DNA of 64,000 bases, taken from positions 1 through 64,000 of the forward strand of contig JAERTK010000108.1 in the NCBI GenBank assembly GCA_016844935.1, read 5' to 3'. The stretch is from Desulfobacteraceae bacterium (GTDB lineage Bacteria > Desulfobacterota > DSM-4660 > Desulfatiglandales > Desulfatiglandaceae). Shown piece after piece: positions 36,806-47,927 of the stretch (positions within the stretch are counted from its first letter, which is position 1; each line of letters begins with the position of its first letter). The notes under the pieces are model-generated. The model made no database searches, was not told the origin of the DNA, and was given only the letters and a program-made list of their open reading frames with translations. Both the position numbers and the translations under genes were made by a program.

Positions 36806-37933
36806 ATGAGAAAGGTTTTCAGAAGGATGACCCCTTTGAAACCAACAACGAGAAGGGAGTTCATGATTGCGGCAGCCAGACGGGGTATGGACCTGGCAAT
36901 ATTGAGTATGATACCCTTGACGGGGTGTGCCCATGCACAAACGCCTCAGGAGAATTCTGCGGCCACAAACAATGATATGACCTTAGAACAGATTGCCCGG
37001 CAAAAACGCCACCACGGAAAGGACCGTTTCATCAATCCTTTCACTCCTTCGGGTAAAAAAGGGTTTTCGGATTTCTTGAAATGGAAACTCTTTTCGGAAA
37101 ACCATTTCAGGGAGCAGTATGCGGATGAACCGGTAACCCCGGTCAAAATTGACTGGAAACCCATTATGGCCCACAAAGGGCTTTCCGTCACCTTCATCAA
37201 TCACGCTTCCGTACTCATACGGGATGCGGGTGTGTCGATTCTGGTGGACCCGGTATTTTTCGGTCTGTTCCCCATTTTTAAAAATTTCACGCCCATTGAA
37301 TTTGAAATCGACACCATGCCGCAGCCCGACCATGTGTTGATCACCCACGGCCATTATGACCATCTGGATAAGGATACCCTGTCTGTTTTTGATCCAAAGA
37401 CCCATGTGGTTTCACCTCTGGGCTATGATTCTGTCTTTTCATCCATCGGCATGAAAAATCGCACGAAGCTGGACTGGTTTGATGCCTTTGACGACGGAGA
37501 GCGTCAGATTATTCTGCTCCCCTGCAACCACTGGACCATGCGCAACCCCATCGTTGGGCCGAATCGCAACCTGTGGGGAAGCTATCTCATCAAGACCGCA
37601 TCAGGTCCCACCATCTTCATCAGCGGGGATACCGCCTATTTCCAAGGGTTCAAGGAGATTGGCGAGCAATATGACATCGACCTGGCTATTTTAAGTGTGG
37701 GGGCCTATGAGCCGCGCTGGTTCATGAATCAAAGCCATATGAACCCGGCCGAAACGGTTCAAGCCATGCAGGATCTAAAGGCGAAAAAGATGTTTATCGT
37801 CCATTGGGGGACTTTCCGGCTGGGAGATGAACCGGTGCATGTACCGCCTGTAGATGTAAGGCGTGAGTTTCAAAAGGCAAATATGACGGAGAGATTCCTG
37901 GATCTGAAGCACGGTGATACGCTTTATTTCTAA
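36806..37933 (+). CDS. Exported MBL-fold hydrolase (NAPE-PLD/UlaG-like)
   Basis: The 375-residue metallo-beta-lactamase-fold protein has metal motif VLITHGHYDHLDKDT (HxHxDH), GDTAYFQGF and a late MFIVHWGTF. This arrangement is seen in NAPE-phospholipase D-like and L-ascorbate-lactonase-like enzymes. The N-terminus TRREFMIAAARRG followed by a hydrophobic run and LTGC looks like a Tat signal with a lipobox, so the folded metalloenzyme may be exported and lipidated. The start could be 36806 or 36827. It overlaps the convergent kinase gene by four bases. Substrate unknown. Confidence 0.78.
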   Translation: MRKVFRRMTPLKPTTRREFMIAAARRGMDLAILSMIPLTGCAHAQTPQENSAATNNDMTLEQIARQKRHHGKDRFINPFTPSGKKGFSDFLKWKLFSENHFREQYADEPVTPVKIDWKPIMAHKGLSVTFINHASVLIRDAGVSILVDPVFFGLFPIFKNFTPIEFEIDTMPQPDHVLITHGHYDHLDKDTLSVFDPKTHVVSPLGYDSVFSSIGMKNRTKLDWFDAFDDGERQIILLPCNHWTMRNPIVGPNRNLWGSYLIKTASGPTIFISGDTAYFQGFKEIGEQYDIDLAILSVGAYEPRWFMNQSHMNPAETVQAMQDLKAKKMFIVHWGTFRLGDEPVHVPPVDVRREFQKANMTERFLDLKHGDTLYF

Positions 37934-40144: not shown

Positions 40145-40609
40145 TTGTTACACATATTTATAGATGCCGATGCGTGCCCGGTGAAACAGGAGGTGTATCG
40201 CGTGGCAGGCCGATATGGCCTCCATGTCACATTGGTGGCCAACTCCTGGATGCGGGTTCCCAATGAACCATGGATAGCGCTTAAAGTTGTCGGTGACGGA
40301 TTGGACGCGGCCGATGATTGGATTGCTGAACATGCGCAACCCTTAGACATCGTGATTACCGCTGATGTTCCCCTTGCGAGCCGCTGTGTGAAGGCAGGGG
40401 CACGTGTAATGGGTCCGACCGGAAAGCCTTTTACCCAAGACAACATCGGTCAGGCTGTTGCGACCCGGGACCTGTTGTCGGAACTCCGTTCCATGGGAGA
40501 AATAACAGGCGGGCCGCCACCGCTTAAAAAACGTGACAAATCAAATTTTCTTCAAAGGCTCGACGATGTGATTCAATCAATCCATCGTGAGCATCGGTCC
40601 AATTCCTGA
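40145..40609 (+). CDS. YaiI/YqxD family (UPF0178) protein
   Basis: The 154-residue protein has the PIN/NYN-like signature MLHIFIDADACPVKQEVYR and later DIVITADVPLASRCVKAGA, VMGPTGKPFT and DNIGQAVATRDL, all typical of UPF0178. A nuclease-like fold is suspected for the family, but the function is unknown. It starts at TTG 40145, with GAGG about ten bases upstream. Confidence 0.88.
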   Translation: MLHIFIDADACPVKQEVYRVAGRYGLHVTLVANSWMRVPNEPWIALKVVGDGLDAADDWIAEHAQPLDIVITADVPLASRCVKAGARVMGPTGKPFTQDNIGQAVATRDLLSELRSMGEITGGPPPLKKRDKSNFLQRLDDVIQSIHREHRSNS

Positions 40610-40638: not shown

Positions 40639-41664
40639 ATGAACGGAAAAAAATGCAAACCTCTGTCTTGTTTTGTGAAAATGTTTCTATGGGCAATTCT
40701 CTTGGGTTTTTCTTTTTCCGGGGTCGCTTTTTCAAAAGGCCCCGCATTACCTGGAAACACCACCATTACCCCCGCCTTCGCACCCCCTTGCAGTTCAAAC
40801 GGCACCTGCCGGGAATTGGATACTTGTGCGGATGTGGACTTTGGGCAGTGTAAAGCCTTTAAAGGGATTCCGGGTTTGCAGCGGGTGCTTTCGGGTTCCT
40901 TCGGTTCTTTAGGTTTTCGTGCCCAGACCGTGAACAGCAAAGATAAAAAGCCGGTTTCCCTGTGGCACCATGTGCCGCTGATCATATCCGACGATGAAAA
41001 GGGTTTTGTGGTGAACGCATTTTTTGAAATCAGCCGCGGTACCCAAGCCAAGGTTGAATTGAACAAATGGGAGCCCCACAACCCCATGTGGCAGGACCGC
41101 AAAAAGGTCAAAGATCAGAACTTCAAGCGGCCCCGGTACTATGCCTGGTCTCCTGCGCCGGGAAATTACGGGGCATTGCCGCGAACCTGGGAAAACGTCC
41201 TTGAAGAGGATCCCATCACCGGATTCCCGGGAGATGCGGATCCCATTGATGTCATCGATGTGGGGTCCGCGCCATCCCCTCTGGGATTGGTGTATCAGGT
41301 GAGAGTGATCGGTGCTCTGGGGATGATTGACGGTACCGATCTTGAGACCGACTGGAAAATCTATGTGATCAATATCAAAGATCCAAGGGCTGAAAAAATA
41401 AAAGATATTTCGGATGTGCCTCAGGAAATCAAAAATCGATGGGGGATCTTCTGGCGGTTTTACAAAACCGCAAAGGGCCTGGATGAGAATTTTTTTTACG
41501 ATCCCGAATCCGTCAGGAAAGTCAATGCCGATCCGGTGTGGCTGGGGGCAAAGGAAGCACGGAAAATTGTGTTGGACTCTGCCGCCGCATACCGGAAGCT
41601 CGTTTTAAAGTGCCTCAACCGGAAGGTCAAAAAACCGTACTGGGTACCCGGATGTTCTCCATAA
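40639..41664 (+). CDS. Exported eukaryotic-type family I inorganic pyrophosphatase
   Basis: This enzyme hydrolyses pyrophosphate to two phosphates with magnesium. The 341-residue chain has a signal peptide (about 1-32, FLWAILLGFSFSGVAFS), so it should act outside the cytoplasm. An N-terminal Cys-containing insert follows (CSSNGTCRELDTCADVDFGQC). The catalytic domain has VVNAFFEISRGTQAKVEL, NPMWQDRKKVK, GNYGALPRTWENV and the metal motif GDADPIDVIDVG. The spacing is of the eukaryotic type rather than the short (about 175-residue) bacterial type. Two more Cys lie near the C-terminus, so disulfides are possible. AAAGGT is eight bases before the ATG. Confidence 0.85.
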   Translation: MNGKKCKPLSCFVKMFLWAILLGFSFSGVAFSKGPALPGNTTITPAFAPPCSSNGTCRELDTCADVDFGQCKAFKGIPGLQRVLSGSFGSLGFRAQTVNSKDKKPVSLWHHVPLIISDDEKGFVVNAFFEISRGTQAKVELNKWEPHNPMWQDRKKVKDQNFKRPRYYAWSPAPGNYGALPRTWENVLEEDPITGFPGDADPIDVIDVGSAPSPLGLVYQVRVIGALGMIDGTDLETDWKIYVINIKDPRAEKIKDISDVPQEIKNRWGIFWRFYKTAKGLDENFFYDPESVRKVNADPVWLGAKEARKIVLDSAAAYRKLVLKCLNRKVKKPYWVPGCSP

Positions 41665-41799: not shown

Positions 41800-41917
41800 T
41801 GTCCCTAAATTTTCTCGAACAGCCGGCAGCTGGCGGTCAACGTTTTGCCAGTTGTGGAAGCAGCTTTTCGAGGCGCCAGGAGTTCAGTATCCACATGAAA
41901 AGGAGGAGAAAATTGCT

Positions 41918-43078
41918 ATGAAATTGAAAAGGTTAATCAGCTTCGCCCTCGGTTTACTTCTGATAATGGCAGCAGGTCCGGTTCTGGCAAAGAAGACCGT
42001 TGAAGTGGCTTTTATCGGCCCTTTGACTGGCGGTGTCTCCGCCATCGGCGTGGGGGGAAGGAACTCGGCTGACCTTGCGGTAAAGCTGAGAAATGCAGAC
42101 CCCAAAGCCAAGTACCATTATGAGCTGGTGGTCCTGGATGATGAGTGTAAGCCTAACGCAGGTGTTCAAGTGGCTACCAAGGCGGCCGCCAACAAAAAGA
42201 TCATTGCCGCCGCGACCCAATATTGCTCCGTGGTGGCGCTGGCCTCCGTGGATGTTTACCACAAATTCGGTCTGCCGGTTGTGGTCTGGGGGGCAGTCCA
42301 TCCGGACATTACCTACGGAAACAACTACAAAGAGGTTCACCGGATCAACGGTACCATGATCAATCAGAATGAAGTTGCCGCGAAGTTCATCACGGGCCTG
42401 GGATATAAGACCTGGGTGACGCTCTATGATACCACTGACTACGGCAAGGGTATGAACGAATACTTCACCAAATACCTCAAAGAGAACGGCGGAAAAATTC
42501 TGGGCAGCTTTGGTGTAACTTCCGATCAACAGGACTTTACCGCTGAACTCACCCAGGCCAAGAAGCTCAACCCGGACATTATCTGGTTTGGCGGGCTGAC
42601 GCCCTTGGGCGTGCGGATTCGATTGCAGATGGAGAAACTGGGGCTCACCAGCCAGTTTCAGAGCTGTTCAGGTATTATTTCCGATGCGTTTATCACGGGA
42701 ACAGGCAACCTGGGTGAAGGGACCATCGCTTTCAGGGAAGGTGAGCCTGTAGAGAATCTTCCGGGCGGAAAATGGTTTCTGGAGGAATACGGCAAGGCTG
42801 GATATAAAGAGGCGCCGGACGCATTTGGTCCCTTTGCCTTTGCCGCCATGAACCTGATCCTGGATGTTATTGAAGAGGTCGGCCCCAGCCGAAAGGCGGT
42901 GGTGAAGCGAATGGAAAACATCAAGGGTTATGAGGCCATTGTGGGTTCCGTGACCTTCGATGAACACGGTCAGAACACTTCTCCCGCCATTACCAAATAT
43001 GTGGTCCAGGACGGAAAGTGGGTGCCGTGGCAGAATTCCGAATACGCAAGCGGCAAACGCAAACTGAAAAGACGCTAA
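41918..43078 (+). CDS. livK: Branched-chain amino acid-type ABC transporter substrate-binding protein
   Basis: The periplasmic binding protein has about 386 residues from ATG 41918, preceded by AGGAGG (41901-41906). The longer reading from 41852 adds a non-signal segment. The signal peptide is MKLKRLISFALGLLLIM ending VLAKK. The mature part is a type I periplasmic fold with FIGPLTGGVSAIGVGGRN and VVLDDECKPNAGVQVATK. GVTSDQQDFTAELTQAK is the usual central motif. It heads a complete transporter operon. Ligand is likely a branched-chain or other amino acid. Confidence 0.9.
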   Translation: MKLKRLISFALGLLLIMAAGPVLAKKTVEVAFIGPLTGGVSAIGVGGRNSADLAVKLRNADPKAKYHYELVVLDDECKPNAGVQVATKAAANKKIIAAATQYCSVVALASVDVYHKFGLPVVVWGAVHPDITYGNNYKEVHRINGTMINQNEVAAKFITGLGYKTWVTLYDTTDYGKGMNEYFTKYLKENGGKILGSFGVTSDQQDFTAELTQAKKLNPDIIWFGGLTPLGVRIRLQMEKLGLTSQFQSCSGIISDAFITGTGNLGEGTIAFREGEPVENLPGGKWFLEEYGKAGYKEAPDAFGPFAFAAMNLILDVIEEVGPSRKAVVKRMENIKGYEAIVGSVTFDEHGQNTSPAITKYVVQDGKWVPWQNSEYASGKRKLKRR

Positions 43079-43163
43079 CCTAGCCTGAACCAACCGGTGG
43101 AGCGGGAAAACCAACCCGCTCCACACAGCCGGTTTTCTATCTGAATATATGGACTAATCCCTG

Positions 43164-44084
43164 ATGGACATTGGACTGATCGCCCAGCATATTGTGAATG
43201 GACTGATGCTGGGGTTGATATACTCGTTGGTGGCGGTGGGGTTCACCCTTTTTTTCGGTGTGCTGGACGTCATCAAGTTTTCCCACGGAGATATGCTGAC
43301 TTGGGGTGTTTTCACGGCATTTTCAGCCTATCTCGGTTTAGCACTGGTGGGTTTTTCCTCTCCCTGGTTCATTCTCGCCATCGTGGCCCTGTTTGCCATG
43401 GCGGCCATCGGTTTCTTAGGAGCGGTCATTGCCAAAGTCTTGATCATCCCTTTGAAGGGGGCGCCGCCGCTTAACACCCTGTTGATTACCCTCATGCTGG
43501 GGACCGTGCTCAGGGAGTCCATCCGCCTGTTCTACCCCGACGGCGCCAACCCCAAACATTTCCCGGCCCTCTTGCCCGATTGGAGTCATTCCTGGGGACA
43601 TTTCACATTACGGTTTGACAACGCCGCCATGTTCATTGCCGGCATCTTGATGATCATGCTGGTGCAAATCATCATCAAACGCACCAAACTGGGGATGGCC
43701 ATTCGTGCGGTGAGTCAGGACGAGGAAACAGCCCGAATCATGGGGATCAATTTCAACATGGTCGTGTATGTTACCTTTGCCATCGGAAGCGGCCTGGCGG
43801 CCTTTGCCGGCGTTATCTATGGTCTGTATTATAATGAATTGAGTTTTAATATGGGGTTGCTCCTGGGGGCCATCGGCTTTTCCGCTGCCGCCGTTGGCGG
43901 TTTTGGAAACATTTATGGCGCCATCGTAGGGGGATTCCTGTTTGCCCTGTTGCAGACCATTGGCGCTGCGGCATTGCCTTTCGCCAGTGCATACAAGGAT
44001 GTTTTTGCCTTTGGTGTGGTTATTGTCCTGATCGCTATCAAACCCACTGGTCTTCTGGGCGAAAAAGAAACGGAAAGAGTCTAA
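43164..44084 (+). CDS. livH: Branched-chain amino acid ABC transporter permease LivH
   Basis: The 306-residue inner-membrane permease of the LivH type has about eight helices. Landmarks are NGLMLGLIYSLVAVGFTLFFG, then DVIKFSHGDMLTWG and the coupling segment MAIRAVSQDEETARIMGIN, which contacts the ATPases. A Gly-rich GAIGFSAAAVGGFGNIYGA closes the pore region. It pairs with LivM, four bases downstream. No strong ribosome site precedes its ATG, so translation may depend on the operon. Confidence 0.92.
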   Translation: MDIGLIAQHIVNGLMLGLIYSLVAVGFTLFFGVLDVIKFSHGDMLTWGVFTAFSAYLGLALVGFSSPWFILAIVALFAMAAIGFLGAVIAKVLIIPLKGAPPLNTLLITLMLGTVLRESIRLFYPDGANPKHFPALLPDWSHSWGHFTLRFDNAAMFIAGILMIMLVQIIIKRTKLGMAIRAVSQDEETARIMGINFNMVVYVTFAIGSGLAAFAGVIYGLYYNELSFNMGLLLGAIGFSAAAVGGFGNIYGAIVGGFLFALLQTIGAAALPFASAYKDVFAFGVVIVLIAIKPTGLLGEKETERV

Positions 44085-44088
44085 ACGA

Positions 44089-45243
44089 ATGTCTGAGTCA
44101 ATAAGGAAACGAACTTCCTTTTTCCCCGCTCTCCTTGCGGTGCTGGCGGGCGCCGTCTATATGGTGTTTTTCCTGGCGGGCGAATCGCAGATGGTGATTT
44201 TCGGGCTCCTTCTGGGAGCGGGGCTCGTTGTGACGGCGTTTAAGTATCTGCGGGTCCTGGACGTTGTGGGAGAGAGCGCAAAGGACCACCAGCGTGCTTT
44301 TTCCATCGCTGTGATTGCCGGGGTTATGGCCGTAAGCCTTTATTTCTACGATGATCCCTTTGTACTCTTTTTAGTGGGTACGGTCCTGGTCTACGTCCTC
44401 ACCTGCCTGGGTCTGAATATCCAATTCGGATTCGTGGGGGTATTGAATTTCGCGGGTGCCTCCTTTTTCGGGGTCGGGTGTTATACGGCGGCCATTCTGA
44501 CCAAAAATACGGGCGTACCCCATCTGGCGGTTATCTTTTTGGGCGGCTTGATGGCGGCGCTTCTGGGCTTCGTCGTCCTGATCCCGGTTCTAAAGACAAG
44601 GGGGCACTACGCGGCGCTGGTGACCATCGCGTTCGCGCTGTTGTTCAAGACGTTTCTCGAGGTGAACGATACCCTTGGCGGGCCACAGGGGTTGAAATGC
44701 GGCGCGTTGAACCTGTTCGGCTGGGATTTCAACCGGGATATTGTGATCGGTTCCTTTGAGGGGTGCTTTTATCTGGGGTATATTGCTGTTATCTTGCTGC
44801 TGCTTATTTTTGGCTTTATTCTGGCACGCCGCATGGAAGACTCCTGGGTAGGGCTCAACATGGACGCGGTACGTCTGGACGAAACGGTGAGTGCCTGTTT
44901 TGGGCAATCCATCCCCCGGTGGAAGATTACGGCCTTTACCATCGGAAATTTCTACTGCGGGGTGGCGGGTGCTTTTTACGCCATGATGCTCGGGTACATT
45001 GCGCCAACCAACTTTACCTTCGGAGACTCGCTGATCCTTTTGTCCATCGTGATTCTGGGAGGACTGGGCTCCATGTGGGGGACAGTGGTAGCGACGGTCA
45101 TCGTGATCCTCATTCCGGAAAAATTCCAGGTCCTGCAGGAGTATCGCTTTTTGCTGTTCTCTGCTCTGGTGATCGCCATCCTGCTATTCCGACCCCAGGG
45201 TCTGCTGCCGCGTCCCTTGCGCAGCTATATTACGCTGAAATAA
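44089..45243 (+). CDS. livM: Branched-chain amino acid ABC transporter permease LivM
   Basis: The 384-residue permease has extra N-terminal helices, as in LivM. Landmarks are LGLNIQFGFVGVLNFAGASF, the ATPase-coupling segment SWVGLNMDAVRLDETVSACFG and GGLGSMWGTVVATVIVILIPE. The final helix ends in LFRPQGLLPR, another family mark. With LivH it forms the membrane pore of the transporter. Confidence 0.92.
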   Translation: MSESIRKRTSFFPALLAVLAGAVYMVFFLAGESQMVIFGLLLGAGLVVTAFKYLRVLDVVGESAKDHQRAFSIAVIAGVMAVSLYFYDDPFVLFLVGTVLVYVLTCLGLNIQFGFVGVLNFAGASFFGVGCYTAAILTKNTGVPHLAVIFLGGLMAALLGFVVLIPVLKTRGHYAALVTIAFALLFKTFLEVNDTLGGPQGLKCGALNLFGWDFNRDIVIGSFEGCFYLGYIAVILLLLIFGFILARRMEDSWVGLNMDAVRLDETVSACFGQSIPRWKITAFTIGNFYCGVAGAFYAMMLGYIAPTNFTFGDSLILLSIVILGGLGSMWGTVVATVIVILIPEKFQVLQEYRFLLFSALVIAILLFRPQGLLPRPLRSYITLK

Positions 45244-45279
45244 GACATGGTCAAATCGTTGAGACGGTAAGGATTCACA

Positions 45280-46056
45280 TTGCAGAACGTATTGTTGAAT
45301 ATCTCAAAGCTTGGAAAAAATTTTGGTGGCGTAACGGCCCTGGTCGATCTGGACCTGGATGTGGCGCGGAATCGGATCCTCGGCCTCATTGGACCCAACG
45401 GAAGCGGTAAAACCACTTTTTTCAATGTGGTGACCGGCATTTATCCCACCACGTCCGGAAAGGTGGCCTTTGAGGGTGAGGACATTACCAACTTTTCCCC
45501 CCAGAAAGTTTATAGAGCAGGCGTTGCCCGAACATTTCAACGATCCCGTCTCCTTCTGCCGCTCTCCATCATGGACAACATCACCCTGGGTGATCACAAC
45601 CAGCTTGAAAACGGCCTCTTTTTCAACCTTTACAGAAGGCGGGCGCTGGCTGCCCAGTACCGGGAGATCCGGGACAAAAGCCGGGATCTCATTACCATCT
45701 TCGACCCCGATCTGGCCGATAAACTTTTTGAGCCGGTGGTCAACCTGCCCATGATTTCCCGTCGTCGCATCGAGATCTGCAGAGCTCTGATCTCCAATCC
45801 GAAACTGCTGCTGTTGGATGAACCGTCAGCGGGCATGACCCATGAGGAAACCTTCCGTTTGATTGATGATATCCTTCATATCAAGGAAAAAATTGAAGAC
45901 CTCACCGTCATCATTATTGAACATGAGATGTCGGTTATGGAGCGCATTACCGATTACTGTGCGGTGCTCAATTTTGGCAAGAAAATATGTGAGGGAACCT
46001 ACCAGGAGATTGCCTCCGATGCGGAGGTTCAACAGGCTTATCTGGGGGTGGACTGA
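45280..46056 (+). CDS. livG: Branched-chain amino acid ABC transporter ATPase LivG
   Basis: The 258-residue ABC ATPase starts at TTG 45280 (AAGGA seven bases upstream). Walker A is GPNGSGKTTFFN, the LivG-type VARTFQRSRLLLPLS follows, and Walker B is LLLLDEPSAGMT. The signature motif is unusual: PMISRRRIEICRAL stands where LSGGQ-R is expected, so the canonical LSGGQ is degenerate. The switch His is in IIIEHEM. The stop shares one base with the livF start. Confidence 0.9.
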   Translation: MQNVLLNISKLGKNFGGVTALVDLDLDVARNRILGLIGPNGSGKTTFFNVVTGIYPTTSGKVAFEGEDITNFSPQKVYRAGVARTFQRSRLLLPLSIMDNITLGDHNQLENGLFFNLYRRRALAAQYREIRDKSRDLITIFDPDLADKLFEPVVNLPMISRRRIEICRALISNPKLLLLDEPSAGMTHEETFRLIDDILHIKEKIEDLTVIIIEHEMSVMERITDYCAVLNFGKKICEGTYQEIASDAEVQQAYLGVD

Positions 46057-46775
46057 TGGAAGGACAGGTTTTATCATTGAGTGTCCAGGGTATTTATACC
46101 GCCTATGACCGGGCAGATGTGCTGGAGGACCTTTCCCTGGAAGTGCTTGAGGGTACCATTACGTGTCTTTTGGGGAACAATGGCTCTGGAAAGACCACCG
46201 TCATCCGTTCCATCCTGGGGTTGACCCCTCCCAGAACCGGGCGCATTGTTTTCGAGGGCGCCGATATTACGCATCTTCCCACCCACAAGATTATTCGCCA
46301 GGGGCTTGCATCCATACCGGAAGGGCGTAAGGTCTTTCCAGGTCTCACGGTGGAAGAAAATCTTCTGCTGGGGGGATATCAGGAAGATGATAAACAGGTT
46401 CTGCTTCGGCGCATGAGAAAGGTCTACCGGATCTTTCCCCTTCTCGAGAAGCGTTCCTCCCAGCTGGCCGGCACCATGAGCGGCGGTGAACAGGCCATGG
46501 TGTCCATCGGTCGGGGTTTGATGGGGGCGCCGAAATTATTGATTATTGATGAGCCTTCCCTGGGACTCTCCCCCCTGTTGGTGAAGGAAAACTTCCGTAT
46601 CATTCAGGACATCCGGCAACAGAACGTTACGGTTTTTCTGGTGGAACAGAACGTGCGGCAGACCCTTGGCATTTCAGATTACGGGTACGTGCTCTCCAAA
46701 GGGGGCGTGGTGGCCGAAGGTGATGCCAAATACCTGCGCGACAACAAAGAGGTCCAGGCGGCCTATTTCGGATAG
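46056..46775 (+). CDS. livF: Branched-chain amino acid ABC transporter ATPase LivF
   Basis: The 239-residue ABC ATPase has Walker A GNNGSGKTTVIRS, the LivF-type GLASIPEGRKVFPGLTVEENL, a near-canonical signature MSGGEQAMVSIGRGLM and Walker B LLIIDEPSLGLSP. The switch region is FLVEQNVRQTL. It overlaps livG by one base (TGATG). Together with LivG it powers uptake. Confidence 0.92.
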   Translation: MEGQVLSLSVQGIYTAYDRADVLEDLSLEVLEGTITCLLGNNGSGKTTVIRSILGLTPPRTGRIVFEGADITHLPTHKIIRQGLASIPEGRKVFPGLTVEENLLLGGYQEDDKQVLLRRMRKVYRIFPLLEKRSSQLAGTMSGGEQAMVSIGRGLMGAPKLLIIDEPSLGLSPLLVKENFRIIQDIRQQNVTVFLVEQNVRQTLGISDYGYVLSKGGVVAEGDAKYLRDNKEVQAAYFG

Positions 46776-46796: not shown

Positions 46797-47927
46797 ATGA
46801 CCCGCATCCCCGATCCCGTTGAACTGACCCAAACCCTTATCCGGATGGATACCATCAACCCTCCCGGTAACGAAGAACCCGCGGCCCGATATTTAGGTGA
46901 GCTTCTGGCCGAAGCCGGACTTGAAGTCAGCTATCCCAGACTGGGTGAAAACAGGACGGGGCTCATCGCCGTCGTGCCCGGAGAATCCTCGAAATTGCCG
47001 TTGGTGTTCACCGGTCATCTGGACACGGTTCCTATCGGCGCCGCCCCATGGGAGAGCCCTCCCCACGGCGCGGAGATTCAAAACGGCCGTCTCATGGGAC
47101 GTGGATCCAGCGACATGAAGAGCGGGGTCGCGGCCATGGCCGTCACCGCCCTTCAACTGGCCCGGGAACCCAAAGGGGAGGGCGGTGTTGTTTTTGTATT
47201 CACCGCCGGGGAGGAGACGGGCAGTGAAGGCGCGTTTCAGATGAAACAAAGCGGGGTCCTGCCCGATGAAGCCGGCGCCCTTGTGGTGGCGGAACCCTCT
47301 GGCAATATCCCCCTTCTGGGCCATAAAGGGGCACTCTGGCTGGAGTGCATTGCAAAAGGAAAATCAGCACACGGTTCCATGCCGGATCTGGGAGATAATG
47401 CCATCTACAAGGCGGCGCGTGCCGCCGCCAGTCTCGAGGATTTCTTTTCTTCCGCCGAAATTCATCCACAATTGGGTAAACCCACGGTGAACGTGGGGAC
47501 CTTTGCGGGCGGCAGTAAGATCAACATGGTCCCGGATTCCGCGCGCTTTCGGGTGGATCTGCGCAGCGTACCGGGTGTGGAACATGCCCGCCTGTTTGAA
47601 GATATAAAGGCGCATCTGGGTCCGGATATTAAAATTGAACGTCTCATTGATCTGCCCGGTATTTTGACGCCGTCAGATGATCCCTGGATCAAACAGGTCC
47701 TGGATATTATGGCCCGTGTTCAGGGCAGCCGGCCGGAACCGGGATATGTCAATTTTTTCACCGATGCCTCTGTTCTGACCTATGCCTTAAACACCCCCCC
47801 CACCCTGATACTGGGTCCGGGGGAACCGTCACAGGCCCACCAGACCAATGAGTACTGTGTGGTGGAAAAAATCGGCCGGGCCGTTGAATTTTACCTGGCA
47901 ATCGCCAGGGATTGGGTCGGGGCTTGA
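46797..47927 (+). CDS. M20-family peptidase/deacylase (ArgE/DapE type)
   Basis: The 376-residue zinc hydrolase has metal motif VFTGHLDTVPIG, bridging Asp in GRGSSDMKSGVAAM, catalytic Glu-Glu in TAGEETGSEGA and a final PGEPSQAHQTNEYC. It begins 21 bases after livF with a good AGAGGTG site, so it is probably the last gene of the liv operon. It may release amino acids from N-acyl amino acids or dipeptides taken up by the transporter. It is not a close copy of the M20 protein at 16102. Confidence 0.88.
   Translation: MTRIPDPVELTQTLIRMDTINPPGNEEPAARYLGELLAEAGLEVSYPRLGENRTGLIAVVPGESSKLPLVFTGHLDTVPIGAAPWESPPHGAEIQNGRLMGRGSSDMKSGVAAMAVTALQLAREPKGEGGVVFVFTAGEETGSEGAFQMKQSGVLPDEAGALVVAEPSGNIPLLGHKGALWLECIAKGKSAHGSMPDLGDNAIYKAARAAASLEDFFSSAEIHPQLGKPTVNVGTFAGGSKINMVPDSARFRVDLRSVPGVEHARLFEDIKAHLGPDIKIERLIDLPGILTPSDDPWIKQVLDIMARVQGSRPEPGYVNFFTDASVLTYALNTPPTLILGPGEPSQAHQTNEYCVVEKIGRAVEFYLAIARDWVGA

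Follow-up and report, generated by a model that had tools for sequence, protein, structure and literature searches.

Family I pyrophosphatases are textbook housekeeping enzymes of the cytoplasm, and the question raised by this locus is what use a bacterium might have for one that looks eukaryotic and begins with a signal peptide. In the window (the whole stretch of 64,000 nucleotides that was analysed), the gene runs on the + strand from an ATG at 40639 to a stop codon ending at 41664 and encodes 341 amino acids, with an AAAGG 9 nt upstream of the ATG that, by eye, resembles a ribosome-binding site. A first-pass annotation had described a pyrophosphatase (PPase) of eukaryotic type with a signal peptide at exactly these coordinates, and as an observation this was confirmed in the reading frame, the family, the N-terminal signal and the cysteines. 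Residues 128–283 match PF00719 (Pyrophosphatase) with 102.1 bits against a curated cut-off of 23.5 bits, which makes the protein a member of family I, and it is the sole PF00719 match in its genome; no NCBIfam equivalog scored above its own cut-off. AlphaFold models of four orthologs had a mean pLDDT of 31.8, too low to support claims on the fold or on disulfide geometry. The features of the gene are as follows.

40639..41664, + strand: family I inorganic pyrophosphatase of eukaryotic type (341 aa), predicted to be exported, from the reading frame, Pfam, PDB-chain scores and trees
40639..40734, + strand: predicted signal peptide with n-, h- and c-regions, ending near residue 32, from hydropathy and dN/dS, cleavage site placed by eye
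40789..40851, + strand: Cys-rich N-terminal segment, residues 51–71 (C51, C57, C63, C71), invariant in five orthologs
40933..41514, + strand: catalytic core, residues 99–292, aligned to residues 19–210 of yeast PPase
41611..41655, + strand: C-terminal Cys pair C325/C339, found in the genus only and absent from the Methylococcaceae relative

The eukaryotic character was borne out by two kinds of comparison. Against PDB chains, the window protein scored 112 bits with yeast PPase and 78–109 bits with the other eukaryotic enzymes among its matches, and at most 36.6 bits with chains of the short bacterial kind. Its relative from a Methylococcaceae MAG (L004) likewise matched eukaryotic chains best, with Schistosoma at the top with 113 bits. 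When trees were built from the core, the group of five (the window protein, its orthologs L002, L003 and L044 from the same genus, and L004) joined yeast and Schistosoma with 100/100 support, apart from the other, bacterial PPase loci found in the genome searches. The first tree held 20 of the 39 non-group PPase loci, the other 19 having been missed by the motif, and the second held 35, leaving out L022, L023, L062 and L065; the second carried a warning of long branches meeting, including the branch that connects the group to the remainder. With two eukaryotic rows, the trees reach as far as this association and neither place the group inside as opposed to beside the eukaryotes nor name a gene donor. 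Both lines of evidence support a group nearer to the eukaryotic (fungal and animal) than to the bacterial family I enzymes. Since Schistosoma PPase scores 135–277 bits with other eukaryotic chains, and the group only about 70–113 bits with eukaryotic chains, the group is no recent copy of any eukaryotic gene sampled.

The second part of the question is whether the protein leaves the cytoplasm. The N-terminus of the window protein, MNGKKCKPLSCFVKMFLWAILLGFSFSGVAFSKG, has by eye an n-region with a net charge of +3, a hydrophobic stretch and A-F-S preceding a probable cleavage site near residue 32, and this n-h-c architecture of a Sec signal is common to all four genus members. The best 15-residue Kyte–Doolittle mean near the N-terminus is 1.98 in the window protein and 2.2–2.7 in the four relatives. 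Residues 1–36 have a dN/dS of 0.21–0.68 (window, L002 and L044, with L003 left out) while hydropathy is conserved, so that the segment appears to evolve as signal peptides do, with fast sequence change around a hydrophobic stretch that is kept. The N-terminus of the Methylococcaceae relative, MNPLRYLVLSLSLVLVFGCSQ, reads by eye as a lipoprotein signal with the lipobox LVFGC. That a conserved enzyme should have had its export signal replaced by one of another kind is hard to account for unless the protein works beyond the cytoplasm, and this is the best evidence for an extracytoplasmic location. With a signal on every ortholog, the exported enzyme that the annotation had proposed is well sustained at the level of sequence, and export from the cytoplasm is very likely. 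The cysteines fit the same picture: the four of the N-terminal insert are invariant in all five group members and likely form two disulfides, and the C-terminal pair, which had also been pointed out, is present and limited to the genus (L003 stops at a contig end after the first cysteine of the pair).

The active site had been called intact, and this holds only in part. Fifteen active-site residues of yeast PPase were taken here as the reference, among them the metal ligands E48, E58, D115, D117, D120, D147 and D152. In a MAFFT alignment the window protein matches 13 of the 15 (E48, K56, E58, Y93, E101, D115, D117, D120, D147, D152, K154, Y192 and K193), and for R78 and Y89 the alignment, uncertain in this stretch, shows the equivalents to be either absent or shifted; these two, with K193, are the phosphate-binding residues. 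The core has a dN/dS of 0.08–0.11 in three comparisons, which argues that the enzyme is very probably catalytic. The unaligned R78 and Y89, together with the replacement of K193 by His in L004 (it is kept in the other four) and an insert of two residues in the D147–D152 metal-ligand loop of all five members, mean that the substrate could differ. An exported enzyme acting mainly on an organic pyrophosphate, polyphosphate or another phosphorylated periplasmic compound through an altered phosphate-binding site would also suit the purifying selection seen on the group-specific N- and C-terminal parts. Nevertheless, all seven metal ligands and K56, Y93, E101, K154 and Y192 are kept in all five orthologs, and two arginines invariant in the group, R154 and R166 of the window protein, could either of them stand in for R78, subject to the same uncertainty of alignment. 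We regard such a change of substrate as improbable, and inorganic pyrophosphate (PPi) as the likely substrate judging from the residues retained.

The distribution of the gene is patchy. Among 61 genomes (that of the window and 60 relatives), strong matches were found in four, all from one genus and covering four of its five genomes, and a fifth match, in G031, was weak. Across 395 genomes of the phylum, the only strong match was in the window's own genome, with nine weak ones, and across 369 genomes of the class to which the Methylococcaceae MAG belongs the only strong match was in that MAG, with 63 weak ones. A pattern scan over the genomes of 84,980 species, which needs exact short matches and so misses distant members, returned three relatives, namely two Deltaproteobacteria MAGs, which are G001 and G004 of the genus, and the Methylococcaceae MAG; the genus genome G003 was not among its matches. 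The genus orthologs are 73–81% identical, and the Methylococcaceae relative stands at 57–61%. The patchy distribution suggests horizontal transfer, with one or more moves of the gene between bacteria that are only distantly related. Most of the matches come from MAGs, the window's genome (G000) being rated 7.35% contaminated, and L004 lies on a 5.9-kb contig of a MAG whose host name is uncertain. In the fifth genus genome (G002) the PPase gene was not found, and there the ortholog of the M20 peptidase encoded after the PPase in L002 sits at a contig end, so that the stretch may be missing. A mobile origin was considered and set aside, as no viral contig matched and there were only weak partial matches in plasmids and one phage record.

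The surroundings of the gene differ from genome to genome. Two of the genes upstream in the window are the following.

36806..37933, + strand: metallo-beta-lactamase-fold (MBL) protein with a lipoprotein-like N-terminus; the G003 ortholog lies beside the PPase
40145..40609, + strand: DUF188 (YaiI/YqxD) protein, the upstream neighbour; absent beside the PPase in L002, L003 and L044

The order in the window is the MBL-fold protein (36806), a histidine kinase, TauE, the DUF188 protein (40145) and the PPase (40639), followed by branched-chain amino acid ABC genes at 41852–46775 (assigned by eye, the binding protein tested with Pfam) and an M20 peptidase at 46797. In G003 (L044) the MBL protein is followed 24 bases later by the PPase and then by dihydroorotate dehydrogenase genes, and upstream of the pair, at L044:6835-8247, is a protein with a signal-peptide-like N-terminus, TPRs and a caspase domain (Peptidase_C14). 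L002 and L003 have a biotin gene cluster, bioAFDB, before the PPase (by eye), and in L002 the gene next to the PPase on the other side encodes the M20 peptidase. The shared MBL and M20 peptidase neighbours speak for vertical inheritance within the genus rather than contamination. A conserved operon partner was sought among these neighbours and none emerged, with DUF188 in the window, bioAFDB in two genomes and the MBL protein in one. The MBL protein is a possible, weak candidate for a partner: it lies 2.7 kb from the PPase in the window, its ortholog at L044:8263-9369 adjoins the PPase, and it is also found in other genera of the family that have no strong PPase match. No PHO-box-like site was found in the window, and the scan for promoters and terminators gave no promoter-like site and terminators near chance level.

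A membrane PPase (PF03030) is present in all five genus genomes, the G003 copy in two pieces on two contigs, and the exported enzyme is thus unneeded for cytoplasmic PPi. A family II PPase was also considered for the housekeeping part and rejected in favour of the membrane enzyme, as its DHHA2 domain was found only as a fragment at a contig end in the window's genome (C292:11-334, L011) and not in the four other genus genomes; the fragment is possibly contamination of the MAG.

A clue to function came from the control set, in which the same N-terminal hydropathy measure was applied to 35 of the 39 other PPase loci with a threshold of 1.75 set after the values were known. Three of the 35 reached it, all from gammaproteobacterial genomes, and they form one clade within the bacterial type (100/98 on the branch, 100/100 as a group). 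Each of the three lies directly downstream of a same-strand gene of the purple-acid-phosphatase type (PF16656/PF00149), itself predicted to be exported; the two genes are 6 bases apart in L026 and, in L019, about 10.

L019:1405-3187, - strand: purple-acid-phosphatase-like gene and signal-peptide-bearing bacterial-type PPase
L026:25-1917, + strand: purple-acid-phosphatase-like gene and signal-peptide-bearing bacterial-type PPase
L033:89-1905, + strand: purple-acid-phosphatase-like gene and signal-peptide-bearing bacterial-type PPase

From their arrangement, these are likely gene pairs for extracytoplasmic release of phosphate. The separate clade implies that export of family I PPases probably arose on two occasions or more, and the premise that soluble PPases are normally cytoplasmic is, with another exported lineage in the control set, weaker than it had been put.

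The best explanation, and one we hold to be probable, is an exported eukaryotic-type family I PPase, disulfide-bearing, that would convert PPi to phosphate for uptake. The precursor would be made with its signal peptide and exported through Sec across the inner membrane; once the signal peptide was removed, the protein would fold outside the cytoplasm, where the four N-terminal cysteines and, in the genus, the C-terminal pair would form disulfides. Its metal-dependent centre would hydrolyse PPi, supplied by the environment, lysed cells or exported phosphohydrolases, to two phosphates, which the cell would then take up. Of the earlier interpretation, the eukaryotic type and export have thus stood; phosphate recovery is plausible by analogy with the gammaproteobacterial PPases beside an exported acid phosphatase, and as the simplest use of the enzyme it has about an even chance of being its role; no phosphate-starvation site was found in the window, and no partner gene is conserved. 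The absence of such a site, with the lack of a phosphatase neighbour here, could be read as pointing to a PPase that does not feed the cell and instead removes PPi as an inhibitor of mineral formation or a chelator of metals, or pulls a PPi-releasing periplasmic reaction; no exported partner releasing PPi was identified, and a search for nucleotide phosphodiesterases (PF01663) gave only scattered, uninformative matches. We hold this reading to be unlikely. That the protein is cytoplasmic or merely anchored in the inner membrane, through a later start codon or a retained hydrophobic segment, is very unlikely: in-frame GTG and TTG codons do occur 3' of the hydrophobic stretch and family I enzymes are mostly cytoplasmic, but codon 1 is the start with the ribosome-binding-like sequence, residues 33–79 hold no start-like codon position common to all five relatives, a late start would cut off the conserved cysteines, and the Methylococcaceae relative has its lipoprotein signal.

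A eukaryotic-type PPase kept for export in a genus that also has the membrane enzyme points to cells meeting PPi beyond the cytoplasm, where it would be either a source of phosphate or a by-product to be cleared. More tentatively, the group may be a distinct bacterial lineage of extracytoplasmic eukaryotic-type PPases, stabilised by disulfides and remodelled at the phosphate-binding site, which passed from one bacterium to a distant one and had its Sec signal swapped for a lipoprotein signal. If this is true, family I PPases were, counting the gammaproteobacterial lineage, externalised at least twice in bacteria, which would imply a periplasmic PPi economy that has hardly been described. Among the open-access papers searched, with few from subscription journals, no description of an exported or periplasmic bacterial family I PPase was found; in the available part of a PPase review (PMC11210485), the sole passage found with the word periplasm concerns membrane PPases.

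Compared with known systems, the window protein shares with the fungal and animal family I PPases (yeast, Schistosoma, human) a core of ~190 residues and the metal ligands, with 43% identity to the yeast enzyme (79/183 aligned positions), and differs from them in its bacterial host, its signal peptide, its Cys-rich N-terminal segment, its own C-terminal part and the unmatched R78 and Y89. With the gammaproteobacterial proteins it has in common family I membership and a signal-peptide-like N-terminus, whereas those are of the short bacterial type (about 203 aa), form a separate clade and have an acid-phosphatase-like neighbour. A third comparison is with the PPases of the house dust mite, for which one paper (PMC6064784) has the phrase "secreted inorganic pyrophosphatase", and of trypanosome acidocalcisomes, whose chains were among the PDB matches: these too are eukaryotic-type family I enzymes outside the cytosol, but they belong to eukaryotic hosts and carry other targeting domains.
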